Source of the DNA: Dolichospermum sp. DET69
GTDB lineage: Bacteria > Cyanobacteriota > Cyanobacteriia > Cyanobacteriales > Nostocaceae
Direction of reading: 5' to 3'
Assembly: GCA_017355425.1 (NCBI GenBank)
Contig: CP070233.1
Coordinates: 2,707,501-2,771,500, forward strand
DNA length: 64,000 nt
The number at the start of each line of letters is the position of its first letter. Within the stretch, counting starts at the first letter, position 1. The notes beneath the pieces were generated by a model. It searched no databases. It was not told the origin of the DNA and was given only the letters and a program-made list of their open reading frames with translations. The position numbers and the translations under genes were made by a program. Shown one piece after another: positions 171 through 10,416 of the stretch.

Positions 171-617
171 TTATTCTTGACGAGGATCTGATTGTGGTGG
201 ATGCCAACCCGCTTCTACCCAAAAGTTACGAGCAACTTGAATAGAAGGCTCATCACGTCGTTCATCATTGAAGTCAAGGTGACTAATAGTAGCTCTACCT
301 GTAATAGTTATACCTACAATTTTTATACCATCTTTTGTCCATATAAAATGTTCAGACCATTCTTGTTGACGGGGATGAAATAAAAAAACCTGTTCTTGGG
401 TTTTGGGATCAATACCCACTATAAAATTATAATGACGCTCATTACAGCGATGACAAGCTAAAGCCAAATTATCCAGTTCATCTGAACCTCACAAAGACTG
501 CGGCATAATATGGTCAATGGTAAAACGGTCTGGACTCAGGTATTCTGGAGAGTCGCAGTATTCACAGAGTAATTTAGCTCGTTTTCTTACAAATTTTCTA
601 ATTTGTTCGGACACCAT
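171..617 (-). pseudogene. HNH endonuclease broken by a nonsense codon
   Basis: Read from an ATG at 617, the frame encodes an HNH nuclease of the small cyanobacterial type. It has a Cys-x2-Cys pair (LCEYCDS), the core FTIDHIMPQSL, a second pair (CHRCNE) and a C-terminal tail ending in FWVEAGWHPPQSDPRQE. Codon 43 is TGA (489-491) exactly where the family has a glycine (SLGGSDELDN), so a single G-to-T change of GGA would produce it. The rest stays open in the same frame to a normal stop at 171. A truncated reading beginning at 467 would lack the histidine centre and is unlikely to be active. The start overlaps the end of the upstream gene (587-856) by about 30 bases, as in a coupled pair. I infer a recent loss of function; a sequencing error or readthrough remains possible. 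Confidence 0.85.
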
Positions 618-856
618 TTACTTTTTGCTGCTAATTGAGCGTTAATTAAGGTAAATATCCGCTGTAACTCCGAAATACCTGTATATTCAGCTTCTTCTTC
701 CAGAGTGAGCGTATCAGCTTTTTTCTTATCTAAAAGTTCTTCAAAACGGGACTGTAACTCATCGGTAAATCTAAATAGATAAATATTACCAAATTCACTC
801 ATCTTCATCCCAGCAGATATTAAAGATGAAGGTTGAACCATTAATTGAGTAGTCAT
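587..856 (-). CDS. Small hypothetical protein paired with HNH nuclease
   Basis: This 89-aa protein is mostly helical and charged (FTDELQSRFEELLDKKKAD, TLTLEEEAEYTGISELQRIF). It has no recognisable catalytic motif, signal peptide or membrane segment. Its end overlaps the HNH gene start at 617, so the two were probably translated together. In many cyanobacteria a protein of this size precedes a small HNH nuclease; I infer it is an accessory or regulatory partner, but this is not shown by the sequence. The frame is intact although its partner is broken. Function unknown. Confidence 0.6.
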   Translation of the reverse strand: MTTQLMVQPSSLISAGMKMSEFGNIYLFRFTDELQSRFEELLDKKKADTLTLEEEAEYTGISELQRIFTLINAQLAAKSKWCPNKLENL

Positions 857-1377: not shown

Positions 1378-4300
1378 ATGTCTTCACAAAACAATGGTGG
1401 TGCTAAAATTGAAGCACGTTCACCAAAGCCTTGTATTGATTTAGCAACCCTTGTAGAATTACTAGCTAAAGCTATTCCTCCCAAAAATAATAGTACAACT
1501 CCTAATAAATTGCATCCTGATGATAGAGAAGCATTTATTTTTGATGATAAAAATAAACGTCTTAGAATATGTACCTCAGCAATTATTCGGAGATTATTTG
1601 GAAATAAAGATTTCAAAGCAGCTTTTAATCCCAGTGAAGGTGGGGGTTTTATTCAAGATTTCCCAACTTCTCGTTATGGTTCTAGGATGCGAATTGGTGG
1701 TACTTTAAAAGAAGATAATGCAGATAGATTACCAAAAGCTTTAGATAAATTAATTTCCGCTATTGACGCAGCATTACCTCCAGAAACTCAATTATCAGCT
1801 TTGTTGTTAGATGAAACTCTACAAAAACTTCAACAACTAGCCAAACAAACAGGCACTTATTTTCAGAATAAAGCTCATAGTGCGACTCTTGTACCTATAG
1901 CATTTCCTAATCAAGAGAAAAATCCTGAAAATAAACCCGTTGCTAAAGTAATTTCTGCATTAGAAAAAATAGATGCTAATGATTACTTTTTGCGAATGTC
2001 AAATGCAGTTAAAGAATATTTAGAAAAGCGAGCAGAAGATGATGATGATATTGAAATAGCTCTTGATAGTCTCAAAGCAGCAAAAAATGGCTTAGAAAGT
2101 CAGTTAAATCGGTTTTTGACCTTTTTAGATGACGAAGCATTAGCGCGAGTAAGATTGTTAATAACTTTGCGGATAATGGAAGCAATTTCACAATACAGTT
2201 CCGCTAAATATACAGTATTAACAGAATATGTTCATCGAGTCAATACTTTATTTAATACTGCAAAAGAAGATATTTTTGAAGTTGATTTATCTACTCATTT
2301 TGGTAGTGGTGGTGAATTTAAACTATCGGAATATTTGAATACAGCAGGTTTCTATTTTTGTCTTCCAGTTTGGCCAGAATGTCAAGCACAACTATTTGAA
2401 GATAAAATTTATGATGAAGAAAAAACTAGCTTTGGTGTTATGCGCGAAGTTAGTTATCATTTTCGGATAAATGGAGAAAATCCTATAGCAGGGAAACCTG
2501 CTTTTGATGCACGACTTGGTAAAATTGTTGAAGAATTAATTCCAGAAGATGAAGACTTATTTATTAACGAAAATGTAGTTAGTCGTAGGTTAGCTGAATT
2601 GATATTTTTAGCAATTGTTGTTCCTGATGAAAATTCAGAACATTTAAGTTCAGAAGATTTATCAAATTCAGTAGAAAAAATTTTGCAAAGATTAAAAACA
2701 GATGGTAAGAAAGCTATTAAAGAAATTATAGATGATTTGCAGAAACGTACTAAAGTAATGCAAAAGATAGCCTCATCTTTAATTACTGTTATTAGTACCA
2801 AAGGTGAAAAAATAATTTCTCAAGTGCAGCGTGAATCTTCCCAACAATTTATCTGTGTGAAACGTGGTATTATAGAATGGTCAAGATTAACTGGAGGAGG
2901 ATCTGGCAATTTGCTTGTTGGTTCAGAAAATCCTGGACGAGAAACAATGGAATGGTTCAAAAATATTGAGATTTGTGATACTCCAGAAACACCAGGACTT
3001 TTATTTTCTGTTCAGGTAAATATTCAACTTTCTGAACATAATTTAATTCCTAAAGGTGATCAATATTCAATTCAAGCACAAAGGATATTACCAAAACATA
3101 TTTTACAGATTTTTTGGATGCCATCTTTTTTTATAAAAGATAAAAATAATCAATGGGATTATCAATATTCTCTAAATACTCCTCAATTAAAAGAACAAAC
3201 CCAAAAATGGATATTACCAGCATCAATTTTTGTAGAGTATGAAGTTAAAACTCTAACTCGACAAGAGAATAATAAAGGAAGTGAAGAAAGTAAACAATAT
3301 CATGCGGCTGCGGTTGCAGCTTTTGAAGTATTAGTTTATTGTTGTTTATGGCGGATTATTAACAGATTGAAACAAGAAGTTAGTGATGATTTTACAACTT
3401 TAATGTTGCGATTACAAGAACAGGGAAGAGAAAGTGATGATAAAAGTGGAGATGCTTATGTTTATGCAGCCGCGCAAACTTTAGAAGCGATATTAGCGGA
3501 AGATACTAATATTAGAATGCAAGGAATTGTGCTAAAAAACTTAGCTAAAGCATCATATATTAAACAAGGAGTTTTTAATGCTTTATTGAGTGCATTTCCT
3601 TTAGTTACAAGTACACCAAAACCGCCAGAAATTCCTAAAATTGGTTTGATTTCTTACTCAACTCGTCCCTGTGATGAATCTGGTTTATTGAATGCAGATG
3701 AAAAAAGTTATCTTTTTCTCACACAAAGCTATATTGCTACTGCTGTAAATCAACCATTTTCAGGTTATGAAATTAAAGCAGATAGGAAACAATCTGATAT
3801 TGTTGATACTCTCGAAAATTTGCGAAAACAAAGATTAGTTCAAGAAGAAATCCGTTATTTAGAAAAACAAGGATGTCAACATATCATTTTACTTTCTCAT
3901 GCTTATGGTGGTAGAAGATTTAACCGCGTTGCTGATTATAATTCTTCTTTAACACCAAAAGAATTTTTGGAAGATATTTCTGAAACTTTTCCAAATTCAA
4001 CTATTTATACTTTACTCCGTGATGTTTTTCCTGGTACAAGATTGCGTAAACGTGATACAAATGAAGCTGCATTTGAAATTTCCCAAGCAGGAGATTATAC
4101 TAATTTTTTACATTCTGTGGAAAAAATATTTACTCGTGAATTGATTCCAGTTTATACTTTCGCTACATTGTCTGCAATTCAAGAAGATAAACGGCCACAA
4201 TCAGGTTTTTGTGTTTATTTCCTAGTCTCAGATAAGCGTGTGAGTGATTTGAATTGGACTGAACGCGCACGTCAAAATTTAGTTGTTCCTGAACCAAATA

Positions 4301-4545
4301 CATCTAATATTCATCCTTGTTTAATTTCAGTATTGCGTGGGTTGCATTTTATTGAAGCTGAACGTGGAGTTAATAAATCTGGACAACTTCTCCCTGTTTT
4401 AGATCCCTTTTCTTGGATATCTCCTGATACTGTAGAAGCTGCGGGAGATGTGCGAATTTTGCATACTCGTCGTGGTGGTAAAGTATATTTGAGTTATCCG
4501 GCTTTGCTTACTCACGTTTCACAAGTTTTACATCGAAGGAAATAA
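1378..4545 (+). CDS. Large protein of unknown function, first gene of a helicase-linked pair
   Basis: This 1055-aa protein matches no family I can name. There is no signal peptide or membrane segment, so it is probably cytosolic. The N-terminal 450 residues are largely helical and acidic. The middle (about 470-720) is mixed alpha/beta. The C-terminal 300 residues alternate predicted strands and helices: a strand set starting near residue 752 (IPKIGLISYSTRPCDES), a long helix, then a strand CQHIILLSHAYGGRR at 833-847, and a later IHPCLISVLRGLHFIEAERG. This order resembles an RNase H/PIWI-like or Rossmann-like fold, but I see no canonical catalytic DEDX set, so this is inference only. It lies 74 bp upstream of the helicase-like gene on the same strand, with only a palindromic repeat between, so the two are likely co-transcribed. 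It lacks HIP1 octamers and is AT-rich. A defence function is plausible but unproven. Confidence 0.6.
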   Translation: MSSQNNGGAKIEARSPKPCIDLATLVELLAKAIPPKNNSTTPNKLHPDDREAFIFDDKNKRLRICTSAIIRRLFGNKDFKAAFNPSEGGGFIQDFPTSRYGSRMRIGGTLKEDNADRLPKALDKLISAIDAALPPETQLSALLLDETLQKLQQLAKQTGTYFQNKAHSATLVPIAFPNQEKNPENKPVAKVISALEKIDANDYFLRMSNAVKEYLEKRAEDDDDIEIALDSLKAAKNGLESQLNRFLTFLDDEALARVRLLITLRIMEAISQYSSAKYTVLTEYVHRVNTLFNTAKEDIFEVDLSTHFGSGGEFKLSEYLNTAGFYFCLPVWPECQAQLFEDKIYDEEKTSFGVMREVSYHFRINGENPIAGKPAFDARLGKIVEELIPEDEDLFINENVVSRRLAELIFLAIVVPDENSEHLSSEDLSNSVEKILQRLKTDGKKAIKEIIDDLQKRTKVMQKIASSLITVISTKGEKIISQVQRESSQQFICVKRGIIEWSRLTGGGSGNLLVGSENPGRETMEWFKNIEICDTPETPGLLFSVQVNIQLSEHNLIPKGDQYSIQAQRILPKHILQIFWMPSFFIKDKNNQWDYQYSLNTPQLKEQTQKWILPASIFVEYEVKTLTRQENNKGSEESKQYHAAAVAAFEVLVYCCLWRIINRLKQEVSDDFTTLMLRLQEQGRESDDKSGDAYVYAAAQTLEAILAEDTNIRMQGIVLKNLAKASYIKQGVFNALLSAFPLVTSTPKPPEIPKIGLISYSTRPCDESGLLNADEKSYLFLTQSYIATAVNQPFSGYEIKADRKQSDIVDTLENLRKQRLVQEEIRYLEKQGCQHIILLSHAYGGRRFNRVADYNSSLTPKEFLEDISETFPNSTIYTLLRDVFPGTRLRKRDTNEAAFEISQAGDYTNFLHSVEKIFTRELIPVYTFATLSAIQEDKRPQSGFCVYFLVSDKRVSDLNWTERARQNLVVPEPNTSNIHPCLISVLRGLHFIEAERGVNKSGQLLPVLDPFSWISPDTVEAAGDVRILHTRRGGKVYLSYPALLTHVSQVLHRRK

Positions 4546-4565
4546 TACCAATACCAGAATACCAG

Positions 4566-4594
4566 ATCCCCGACTTCTTGAAGAAGTCGGGGAT
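4566..4594. repeat. 29-bp perfect palindrome (ATCCCCGACTTCTT family)
   Basis: The arm ATCCCCGACTTCTT is followed by one central base and its exact reverse complement, a 14-bp stem. The same palindrome occurs at 28437 (one-base variant), 28741, 29047 and 29353, a degraded copy lies at 8451, and half a copy lies at 58796. It sits between the two genes of the unknown module and could act as an RNA hairpin that attenuates or stabilises the message. It is a dispersed small palindromic repeat of the kind common in Nostocales. Confidence 0.9.
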
Positions 4595-4619
4595 ATAAAT
4601 CTCTTAGGAAATTAATTAA

Positions 4620-7600
4620 ATGCAAATATCATTTTTAGATCAAGCTTCTTTATGGGGACAGGTATTTGAAATTGCTGTAAAACGTGGTGTTTTACGAAAA
4701 TTAGTCCATGCAAAATTACTTTTAGAAAATCATCCAGTTGTTGAAGAATGGCAAAAATATAAAAATGCTGATATTAAAAACAATTTAATAAAAAGCCTGA
4801 AATTAACAGATCAAAATTCCCAAGAATGGGTAGAAAGTATGCTCAGTCATCTGTTAGTTTTAGGTTATGGTTTAGGGTGGACAACTACAAGGGAATGTCT
4901 GAAAAAAACTCCAGTTGCTAAACTGAAATTAGAAGCTATTTGGTGTCCATTATTATTTCCTGGACAGGAACAAAAACCTGATGTAGAACCAGAAGTAACT
5001 GCTAGGGAATTTAAACAAGCTTTTAATTTATCAGGAAATCCAGATTCAGGATTAGTTAAACAAGGAAAACCAGCAAGAGCCGATTTTTTGTTATGGTTAT
5101 CTCCAAATCAAAATTCAACTTCCAAAAAATGTAGTGATTTTATTTTCTGTTTTGAATTTTCTTATAATGCTCCTAGAAAATTAGCAGATTTTAGAAATGA
5201 AACTGCTCATAGAGAAGAAGTAAGTCGTTATGCTCGTTATATTGATTCTAGGGGAGTTTTTTCTAGGGTTTGTGCTGAAGTAGAAGGTGAGGAATTTTCT
5301 ATTTCTTCAGATATAAAAAATCACTTATTACCTTTTAGTGGCTCTGATAAAACTTTGTACAAACTTTGTCAAGCATCCTCTTATACTGAAAATTTAGTTA
5401 AATTATTAAAAAGTCAGGAAAAATTAGAAAGCGGTTGTATTGCTCGCGCAATAGCCATAACATCAAATGGATGTGAAAGTATCGCGGCTAATTTTTCTAA
5501 TCCGTTGGATACTAGAGTTAAATTAATGACATCTTTAGGTGAAGTATATCATAAGTTTCCGAAATCAGATAATGACCCACCTGATAAATTTGCAAAAGAA
5601 ACTCTATCTGCATTTAAAACATTAATAAAATCACTTCCCGCTGATTTCAGAAAACAAGCAAAGCAACTTATTCCAGAACCTGATTTAGCCGCAGATATTA
5701 ACTATAGATTTGAGGAAAATATAGAGGAATTTTATAATCCTACTCAGGAAATATTACGGGAAGATGCAATTTTAGCAGTTGAAGAAACAGAAGCATTACA
5801 TAAATTCTTCTCTGGTAGTCCTCAAAGTCATTTCACTAAAGAACTTTTATCAGCAGAAAAAATACCTTTAAGAGAAATTCATCAAGCAGCAGTCACCGCA
5901 GGTTTAAATTCTGCTCAAATCGGAAAAATTAATGTCATTGCTTTAGAAGGAAATCCAGGAATTGGTAAAACGACTGCGGTGATCAAATTTCTAGAAAAAC
6001 AGTCTCAAGGTTTTATGTTTTTATATATTAGTCCGCGAGTTGTCATTAATAGAGATGTGACTGATAAATTATCTAAAAAAGGTGGTATTTTAACTCTAAC
6101 AACAAATTCAAATTTGATTAATTTAGCTTCTAAATGGTTTAAACAACAAGGTATACAAAGTTATATTGATAGTGCTGTGGTTGTTGATGGTGTTGAAAGT
6201 CTCAATTATCCTGATGGGACTACAAAATTCATTACACCTGCACAAGAAAATGAAATTATTGATAATACTATTTCCGCTAGTAAAACTAAAAATTCCCTCA
6301 ATGAACGTGATGATAAATTAGAATCAATTCGTCGTCCAGGAGTGTTAAAAACCCTCGCAACTTCTGCTAAAAAATTACTAGAAGTTAACCCCAAAATCAA
6401 TCAATTAGTAATGACTGCTGCTACTCAAGGTTATCGTTCTCTTGATGACAAAACCACAATTGATGCTTTAGGAAAGTTATTTAAAAATAAAGCTAATACT
6501 AAACCAGGACAAAAAGAACGTTCAGAGTTTGCAAAGCGTATTCCTACTATTATTGCAATGGTTGATGAAGTAACTGGTGATGGTGCAGGAGCATTATTTG
6601 TCCATAAATTAGGAGAATGGTTACATCAACAATTTATTGAACCTTTTGAGGGGATAAAATCACCTTTTAAAGTTGTTTTAATTTTGGCTGATGCTTCTTT
6701 AAGTAATGAAGTAGTTTTAAATAATTATTTAAGTCATAAAAAAGCCCCTGATAAAGTTTTGTTAAGTAAAAGTAGGGGTAATGAACCATTTAGAATAACA
6801 GGAACTGATGTAAAAGTTGGACTAGGAAAATATCCAACTTTGCATATTATGACTAATAGTTATCCAGCTTCTCAACTTACTGTTGAATATAGTATCCAAT
6901 TGGCAAAAGTTAATCCTGGATTAACAAAAGATGGTAAAAAACAAACTATTCGTCAAGCAATTCGAGAACAATTAGAGCAAAAAAATTTAAATAATGCTTA
7001 TAGAGAAATTGAACGGGGTTTAAAACAAGGATCTGAACAATTGATTTTCTTTGCTCAGGATAAAGCGTTTTTGAGACAATTACGAGAAAAGTTAATTTCA
7101 GGAAAAGATGCTCTTTGTCAACAGCAGGAAGTAGCAGTTTTAGATCAAAGTGTACTTGCTAATAAACGATTAGAATTAGTTCAAGAAAAGACTAGAGATA
7201 AAAAGCGAGTTTTCTTGATGACTTCTTCAGGTTCAAGAGGTGTTTCTTTTCCAAAAACTGATTATATAATTGCCACAATTCCCCGATTTAATATTGAATC
7301 TGCTTTAATGGAAGTTGCACAACTTATTTATCGTGGGAGAGGAATGTACACAGATTCAGAAACGGGTTTACAAGTTTCTGGAGATAATCAAGCTAGAACA
7401 TTAGTAATGTTGATTAATGATTATATTATTGAAGATGAAGATAGTGATTTTCCTAAACGTTGGTTACGTCAATCAAGTGATTTATTGACTTTATTAATGA
7501 TGTTACGTTCGACCATTCATACACGCATTAAAGGTGATGCAGGACTCAAAAGACAACGGATTGCATTTGTTCCAGTTGGTTCTATTGGAGATGAAGAATT

Positions 7601-8441
7601 ATTAAATTTAATGTCTGATGATGTGCAAAGTTTTTTACAGGAAGCACGAGTTTTTATCTTTGATAGTCACTCTGATGAGTCTAAAAGAACTGTGAAAAAA
7701 ACACAACAGCTAATAGAGGAAATATTTGCTGATTTTAAATTAACTGGTAAAGCAGCAGATAGAAATACTAAATCTTATACTGATTATCGCACTTTAGACA
7801 CATTCATACAAGTGGTTTCCAGAATTTCTAGTCAATTATTACCATCTTTAGAAAATGCAGATTTAATAATTCCTGAAAATTTAACTTGTCTTGGTGCTTT
7901 TTGGATAGAAGATTGGGGACAAAGAAAAACAGAAGAAGCATTCATTTTTGAAGCATGGCGTAAAAATATTGGACAAAAAATTGAAAATCTTGGAAAGTTA
8001 CTTTATGTAATTTATAAAGATGATCAAAATAAGTTTCCTCCTAAACTTAGACATCCAGCGGGGGAACTATATACAATTTTAAAGAAAGAACAGGAAGATT
8101 TAACTCAAGAATATTCAACTTTACAAAATCTAAAAACAGAGAATATTTTAGTCAGTATTCCTTTAGATTATCCTCATTTTTGGCGTAAATTTGAAGATGA
8201 AAATAGTCCCAACCTAAGATTAGAAGAACCAGATTCATGGCAAAAATCTTTAGGAAGAAGTTTAACACCTCAAGGTTTAATAATGCCTGTAATTCCCCAA
8301 TATAATGATATTCCTTGGGTAGCTGTGGCTGGTAGAAGGGTTTTAAATCAATGGGAAACTATTTTTAGCGATCGCTATTTTATGGCATCAAGTGAATTAA
8401 ATTTACTCAATACCATCTTATTAGAAGATAATTTAGAATAA
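4620..8441 (+). CDS. SF2/P-loop helicase-like protein, second gene of the unknown pair
   Basis: This 1273-aa protein has a Walker A motif GNPGIGKTT at residues 444-452, a Walker B-like MVDEVTGDG around VDE 648-650, a motif V-like SSGSRGVSFP near 870-878, and a motif VI-like QLIYRGRG at 901-908. These point to an ATP-dependent nucleic-acid translocase or helicase. The N-terminal domain contains ADFLLWL (D155) and CFEFSYN (E179, S181). This spacing recalls a PD-(D/E)xK nuclease, but the expected lysine is serine, so any nuclease would be divergent or inactive. The last 350 residues are unassigned. The gene follows the 1055-aa gene by 74 bp with AGGAAA before the ATG. No methyltransferase lies nearby, which argues against a classical restriction-modification system. 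One HIP1 site occurs only near its 3' end. I am confident of the NTPase core, not of the biological role. Confidence 0.75.
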   Translation: MQISFLDQASLWGQVFEIAVKRGVLRKLVHAKLLLENHPVVEEWQKYKNADIKNNLIKSLKLTDQNSQEWVESMLSHLLVLGYGLGWTTTRECLKKTPVAKLKLEAIWCPLLFPGQEQKPDVEPEVTAREFKQAFNLSGNPDSGLVKQGKPARADFLLWLSPNQNSTSKKCSDFIFCFEFSYNAPRKLADFRNETAHREEVSRYARYIDSRGVFSRVCAEVEGEEFSISSDIKNHLLPFSGSDKTLYKLCQASSYTENLVKLLKSQEKLESGCIARAIAITSNGCESIAANFSNPLDTRVKLMTSLGEVYHKFPKSDNDPPDKFAKETLSAFKTLIKSLPADFRKQAKQLIPEPDLAADINYRFEENIEEFYNPTQEILREDAILAVEETEALHKFFSGSPQSHFTKELLSAEKIPLREIHQAAVTAGLNSAQIGKINVIALEGNPGIGKTTAVIKFLEKQSQGFMFLYISPRVVINRDVTDKLSKKGGILTLTTNSNLINLASKWFKQQGIQSYIDSAVVVDGVESLNYPDGTTKFITPAQENEIIDNTISASKTKNSLNERDDKLESIRRPGVLKTLATSAKKLLEVNPKINQLVMTAATQGYRSLDDKTTIDALGKLFKNKANTKPGQKERSEFAKRIPTIIAMVDEVTGDGAGALFVHKLGEWLHQQFIEPFEGIKSPFKVVLILADASLSNEVVLNNYLSHKKAPDKVLLSKSRGNEPFRITGTDVKVGLGKYPTLHIMTNSYPASQLTVEYSIQLAKVNPGLTKDGKKQTIRQAIREQLEQKNLNNAYREIERGLKQGSEQLIFFAQDKAFLRQLREKLISGKDALCQQQEVAVLDQSVLANKRLELVQEKTRDKKRVFLMTSSGSRGVSFPKTDYIIATIPRFNIESALMEVAQLIYRGRGMYTDSETGLQVSGDNQARTLVMLINDYIIEDEDSDFPKRWLRQSSDLLTLLMMLRSTIHTRIKGDAGLKRQRIAFVPVGSIGDEELLNLMSDDVQSFLQEARVFIFDSHSDESKRTVKKTQQLIEEIFADFKLTGKAADRNTKSYTDYRTLDTFIQVVSRISSQLLPSLENADLIIPENLTCLGAFWIEDWGQRKTEEAFIFEAWRKNIGQKIENLGKLLYVIYKDDQNKFPPKLRHPAGELYTILKKEQEDLTQEYSTLQNLKTENILVSIPLDYPHFWRKFEDENSPNLRLEEPDSWQKSLGRSLTPQGLIMPVIPQYNDIPWVAVAGRRVLNQWETIFSDRYFMASSELNLLNTILLEDNLE

Positions 8442-10327: not shown

Positions 10328-10369
10328 CTCCATTAAATCGGCGGTTATAAACCTCATCTACACAGGCAA

Positions 10370-10416
10370 AACCCACCTACGTGGGTTATTAATTAGTCCG
10401 CGAAGGCGGACTTTGT
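10370..10416 (+). terminator. Double hairpin after rseP
   Basis: Two perfect hairpins lie in tandem: AACCCAC-CTAC-GTGGGTT (10370-10387) and AGTCCGC-GAAG-GCGGACT (10395-10412), the second followed by TTGTTTG. They fit a Rho-independent terminator for rseP, although similar hairpins also occur as dispersed repeats in cyanobacteria. Confidence 0.55.

Follow-up and report, generated by a model that had tools for sequence, protein, structure and literature searches.

A pair of adjacent genes in Dolichospermum sp. DET69 was analysed as a candidate immune module. The pair occupies positions 1378 to 8441 of a 64,000-nucleotide stretch of contig CP070233.1 (forward strand, 2,707,501 to 2,771,500; the window hereafter) and encodes P1, which is predicted to be Argonaute-like in fold, and P2, a superfamily 2 (SF2) helicase with a nuclease-like N-terminal domain. 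Prokaryotic Argonautes are relatives of the RNA interference proteins. With a probability of roughly two in three, we read the pair as an immune module that counters plasmids, phages or both, in which a guided, non-cutting P1 directs P2. The MID-like pocket of P1 would bind the 5' end of a putative small guide, and its PIWI domain, in a fold predicted by the model, would position the target without cutting it. Guide-target pairing would lead P1 to pass the target to P2, an ATP-driven helicase/translocase with intact motifs, which would unwind or translocate along it, and the PD-(D/E)xK-like domain at the N-terminus of P2 would cut or degrade it; if that domain is dead, P2 may clear the target through helicase action alone. 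The earlier note on this DNA saw in the pair an undescribed system against phages or plasmids, a reading that the present analysis supported, immunity itself being what we infer. The pair was not found in the open-access literature, with most preprints and subscription papers beyond the reach of that search. ApsAB and DdmDE already represent the kind, in which an Argonaute-like protein is paired with a helicase-nuclease (PMC11096173).

The two large neighbouring frames lie on the same strand with a gap of 74 bp, as had been described before:

1378..4545, + strand: gene 1 (P1), open reading frame of 1055 aa, divergent Argonaute-like protein (AlphaFold2 model, PDB structure matches)
4620..8441, + strand: gene 2 (P2), open reading frame of 1273 aa, SF2 helicase with N-terminal nuclease-like domain

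The module was indeed AT-rich (GC 32.2%, window 38.1%). The accompanying remark on the scarcity of HIP1 sites carried no weight, because one site (8368) was seen against about 2.1 expected from the window density.

P1 and P2 are inherited as one unit

The genome_contigs collection was scanned with two P1 peptide patterns, and 70 loci were obtained from Cyanobacteria, Proteobacteria and a few bins from other phyla. In 67 of the 70, P1 was followed by a P2-family match in the same orientation, a count that includes copies cut by contig ends, split or short frames (L066, L067, L070, L074, L083, L087 and L114) and one interrupted locus (L110). One of the three loci without an adjacent P2 (L115) ends at a contig edge. 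A Leptolyngbyaceae bin, from a small-genome cyanobacterium, held a lone P1 (L119, 9980-13003) and a P2 about 330 kb away on the same contig (L177, 9862-13617); both genes were intact amid housekeeping surroundings, so the pair is kept even when unlinked. Independent occurrence of the two genes, which the earlier note had taken as a sign against its reading, was thus not the pattern found. The frames of P1 and P2 were intact in dozens of relatives with identity down to about 20-30%, and a P1 with 99% identity was noted in Dolichospermum sp. ST_sed8.

Among 18 P1-P2 junctions inspected as a chosen subset of the loci, 13 overlapped, with the ATG at -1 or -4, which fits translational coupling. For 49 loci, the P1 and P2 trees built by a quick maximum-likelihood method had 41 of 46 splits in common; strong splits never conflicted, whether the 33 of P1 were held against those of P2 or the 36 of P2 against those of P1. 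The pairwise distances of the two proteins were correlated with r of 0.98, a value reached by 0 of 2000 permutations. These results showed that the pair is inherited as one unit.

A good P1 match was detected in 12 of 386 cyanobacterial genomes, including a partial copy (G374) and a fragment (G030); the search at its limit had given 16 genomes, four of which were discounted as weak chance matches. Long close P2 proteins were present in 11 of the 386, each alongside P1, and short close P2 remnants without P1 in three (G099, G336 and G380). Within the genus of the window, P1 was found in 4 of 9 genomes searched. Plasmid-borne pairs were observed in Cupriavidus, Acetobacter and two Acinetobacter records. 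The Chromatiaceae occupied more than one place in the P2 tree, once next to the betaproteobacterium Ramlibacter, a scatter that suggests horizontal transfer but does not prove it.

A second clade of helicases, with about 27% identity, was present in many more of the 386 cyanobacteria. In three plasmid copies, a protein of 1012-1169 aa was encoded directly upstream of the helicase, and it was linked to P1 by hhalign (probability 99.5%, E 2.5e-22; again 99.5% with the larger family). Of 19 further loci, 15 had a match to this partner next to the helicase.

In Thioploca (L110, 13279-14295), P1 and P2 were separated by a gene whose tail is repetitive (GLQQGLQQG), the sole interruption seen. In the third locus without an adjacent P2, from an uncultured proteobacterium (L122, 2657-8448), P1 was cut by what, judged by eye, is probably a TnsAB/TniB/TniQ-type transposon, with genes resembling a fused TnsA-TnsB, a TniB and a TniQ protein.

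Predicted domains of the two proteins

The families were searched for in Pfam, NCBIfam, PADLOC and PHROGs. As the earlier note had stated, no family could be named for P1, for which nothing above cut-off or of weight was found in the four libraries; the sole family match of P2 was Helicase_C (25.6 bits, cut-off 23.5), and PADLOC gave no strong match for either protein. A housekeeping family, which the earlier note had regarded as fatal to its reading, was unsupported for both in these libraries. A phage or viral origin was also rejected, as 50,697 phage records held no match; in IMG/VR, which was scanned for the P2 family only, none of 40 pattern-matching stretches encoded a relative.

The AlphaFold2 model of P1 had a mean predicted local distance difference test (pLDDT) score of 85.1 and a predicted template modelling score of 0.85, and 48 of the 50 PDB matches listed for it carried Argonaute, Piwi or SPARTA titles. 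P1 is therefore predicted to be Argonaute-like in fold, with MID and PIWI (RNase H-type) domains, and the resemblance of its C-terminus to RNase H/PIWI, suspected earlier from the sequence, was backed by the model and these matches. No pPIWI-RE was named among the 50 matches listed, which excludes no relation. By profile, P1 gave nothing significant among known folds (best E 0.87) and no match to Pfam Piwi (PF02171) up to E 1, a model that detected prokaryotic Argonautes (pAgos) in 25 of 291 cyanobacterial genomes. Two regions were delimited:

3379..3612, + strand: MID-like region of P1, about residues 668-745, with Y696, Q700 and Q715 (secondary structure and conservation)
3637..4533, + strand: PIWI-like RNase H-fold region of P1, residues 754-1052 (strand order in the model, structure matches)

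The MID motif of ApsAB, Y-x3-K..Q..K, was compared with the former region, to which we infer that it corresponds. Three of its four key residues were assigned, the last Lys being the exception: Y696 was kept in 55 of 57 relatives and Q715-G716 in all 57, with Lys at the +4 position (700) in 2. The latter region was modelled as a meander of three strands, then a helix, then a strand. The catalytic DEDX tetrad was absent at the positions expected from the strand order: residues 754-764 were free of acids with Tyr at position 760 in 56 of 57 relatives, and acids occurred in at most 2 of 57 per position at 835-842 and at most 1 of 57 at 838-842.

For P2, residues 1-1199 were modelled (pLDDT 85.4), with 1200-1273 outside the model. 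The following parts were recognised:

4620..5495, + strand: N-terminal PD-(D/E)xK-like domain, residues 1-292 (conservation, modelled secondary structure)
5772..7589, + strand: SF2 helicase core, residues 385-990
5949..5975, + strand: Walker A, residues 444-452, GNPGIGKTT, with G447, K450 and T451 invariant
7590..8438, + strand: C-terminal region, residues 991-1273, with ELNLLN kept near the end (alignment)

The positions given earlier for Walker A, Walker B (V648-D649-E650) and the motif V/VI elements up to residue 908 were correct. Conservation and structure matches revealed motifs I, II, V and VI and two RecA-like domains, as expected for SF2; motif II reads VDE and motif VI QLIYRGRG, and K450, D649, E650, R873, Q901, R905 and R907 were identical in 50 of 50 relatives. 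A profile search of known folds recovered the DEAD-box core only (best E 0.002).

The key residues of the N-terminal domain are E17, G149-x5-D155, E179-x-S181, K244, K248 and Q251-x3-Y255. A degraded PD-(D/E)xK nuclease had been proposed here, and its acidic pair held, D155 and E179 being invariant in 50 of 50 relatives; no solved nuclease was matched in the searches. Against PDB profiles the domain gave nothing significant (best E 0.67), and no PD-(D/E)xK nuclease was named among the 50 matches listed for the P2 model, which does not exclude one. K244 and K248 were invariant in 27 of 27 sequences including clade 2, with E179 nearly invariant in the same set; judged from this conservation, the two lysines could stand in for the missing nuclease Lys. 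In Acetobacter persici (L050, 11953-16064), the P2 homologue was split into frames of 1041 and 348 aa.

Genomic surroundings

The flanks of the pair, as far as four genes out in either direction, were searched with PADLOC for 150 of 190 selected genes; a residue limit excluded the other 40, which comprise all those of L100, L110, L113, L123 and L124. At E 1e-10, the 150 genes from 19 loci, some of them near kin of one another, matched 168 models, compared with 25 models for 138 control genes, which were drawn from eight stretches in seven of these genomes; both totals count models, many of them redundant, rather than genes. The defence neighbours included Azaca ZacC and ZacB (L082), a type III restriction enzyme (L112), a type I methyltransferase (L109) and a Mokosh-like protein (L084). 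The commonest flanking Pfam families were sugar-nucleotide enzymes (in few loci), then N6 methylases and HsdR N-terminal domains. The neighbourhood survey suggested by the earlier note thus found P1 and P2 co-conserved, with several copies among known defence genes. Beside a clade-2 pair on a Trichormus plasmid (L051, 15624-26390), a DISARM DrmD (2173.7 bits) and two large, weakly Tiamat-like proteins were encoded.

A third partner gene was not supported. The Uma2-family gene of the window and the HNH and WYL genes 3' of the pair in Acinetobacter piscicola did not recur widely, and among the flanking genes of 74 loci no widely recurrent third gene was seen, the commonest family occurring in 9 of 74, all Nostoc-like cyanobacteria. 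The Uma2-family gene lies directly 3' of P2 (8528-9166, + strand; Pfam 4e-22; PADLOC candidate PDC-S17, 7.2e-37); in strain G413, which lacks the pair, a Uma2-family gene precedes rseP. An empty insertion site beside rseP was looked for and none was found, the flanks varying among strains. On the other side, a frame at 171-467 (- strand) resembles, by eye, the terminal part of an HNH endonuclease from cyanobacteria and adjoins a small frame at 587-856 (- strand).

The spacer between the two genes contains one further element:

4568..4592, no strand: palindromic dispersed repeat of 25 bp within the 74-bp spacer

This palindrome was found at 112 genomic places with at most 2 mismatches (0 for a reversed control pattern), so the gap between P1 and P2 is perhaps an insertion; the repeat is probably not part of the mechanism. 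A second dispersed repeat, at about 10331-10400 of the window, matches many places across the genus.

Comparison with known systems and alternative explanations

In the pPIWI-RE triad, a PIWI-type protein, a helicase and a restriction-type nuclease are co-encoded, with activities alike in outline to those proposed here, in the order restriction endonuclease, DinG helicase, pPIWI-RE (PMC3702460). In contrast, the present system has two genes, the Argonaute-like P1 preceding P2, which combines helicase and nuclease-like domain in one chain, and pPIWI-RE (Pfam PF13032) gave no match to P1 or P2 up to E 1 and none in the genome of the window. The long-B pAgos also lack the catalytic tetrad, and cutting is thought to be left to an operon partner (PMC6299218); unlike them, P1 has no Pfam Piwi match, and its profile gave no signal with 20 cyanobacterial pAgos in a test without power. 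A large SF2 helicase as the defence core is shared with the YprA-family systems DISARM, Dpd, Druantia and ARMADA (PMC12458937), whereas neither P1 nor P2 has a CxxC motif and P2 had no PADLOC match at E up to 1.

Several observations, besides the redundancy of the PADLOC totals, weigh against a guided immune module. The first MID Lys is replaced by Gln in 49 of 57 P1 relatives, which may mean altered or absent binding of the 5' end. Asp is kept at position 766, close to where the first PIWI strand ends, in 45 of 57, and the label of a dead PIWI domain therefore depends on the assumed catalytic positions. Ser occupies the nuclease Lys position of P2 in 49 of 50 relatives, and the 50 structure matches listed for P2 are mostly RNA helicases by title, with exceptions such as Mfd, BLM, FANCM and INO80. 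By hhalign, P1 showed no link to pPIWI-RE (probability 0.1-0.2%) or to Argonaute, in a test that was powerless because the positive control, pPIWI-RE against Argonaute, also failed (0.3%). Four of the 19 clade-2 helicases had no partner within the stretch covered. As for the surroundings, models for type II methyltransferases and TIR were hit by control genes too, individual checks of ten large neighbours left five without a match (L090, L097, L099, L103 and L105), and the window's own neighbours, Uma2 followed by rseP- and nth-like genes, form no defence island.

The nearest known relative in kind is the antiplasmid system ApsAB of E. coli ST38, in which an Argonaute-like protein is paired with an SF2 helicase carrying a PD-(D/E)XK nuclease; the helicase and the MID Lys were needed and the nuclease mutant had a partial effect (PMC11096173). 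The same pairing is described for DdmDE of Vibrio cholerae, and the known Argonaute-plus-helicase systems target plasmids (PMC11096173). P1-P2 shares with ApsAB the two-gene layout, an Argonaute-like protein that lacks a cutting PIWI domain, an SF2 helicase with a nuclease or, in P2, nuclease-like domain, some MID-type residues and a broad bacterial spread (PMC11096173), and this common plan would suit a distant branch of the ApsAB/DdmDE family with no family of its own. Such a branch is rather doubtful, since the published descriptions, by which alone and not by sequence comparison both systems were set apart, differ from P1-P2 in several respects (PMC11096173). The nuclease of ApsA is C-terminal with D..DxK, whereas the nuclease-like domain of P2 is N-terminal with E-x-S, and none was recognised behind the P2 helicase, where no separate search of the C-terminal part was made and the last 74 residues lay outside the model. 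Motifs II and VI are DELH and QAVGRVER in ApsA but VDE and QLIYRGRG in P2; the RNase H fold of PIWI type, which ApsB is reported to lack, is present in order in the P1 model; and the MID Lys of the ApsB motif is mostly Gln in the P1 family (PMC11096173).

The same Gln would also suit P1 as a guide-less, Argonaute-derived scaffold that senses either a phage protein or a nucleic acid (DNA or RNA) of unusual structure, with P2 as a restriction-type motor and nuclease, and the kind does include members without the motif, DdmE being reported to lack the MID-like motif that ApsB has (PMC11096173). We regard this as unlikely, because the conservation of Q715-G716 and Y696 suggests that the pocket is still under selection. 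It is more improbable still, in our judgement, that the pair is non-immune and processes cellular RNA or R-loops, as the RNA helicase titles among the P2 matches and the unlinked copies amid housekeeping genes in the Leptolyngbyaceae bin might indicate; against it stand the patchy presence of P1 (12 of the 386 cyanobacteria, 4 of 9 genomes within the genus), the plasmid copies and defence neighbours, and the transposon-cut copy and remnants in several genomes.

The chances are about even that P1-P2 represents a third, separately evolved family of two-gene Argonaute-like immunity, with at least two deep clades across Cyanobacteria and Proteobacteria. Its P1 would bind a guide, be unable to cleave yet keep the PIWI fold, and direct an RNA-helicase-like SF2 motor with an N-terminal nuclease. 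If so, a widespread further family with an RNA-helicase-like motor and no sequence link to the libraries searched would be a new place to seek guide-directed immunity, and it would account for protein groups labelled just hypothetical or helicase-related. With two genes and clear point mutants, P1-P2 is an easily tested pair.
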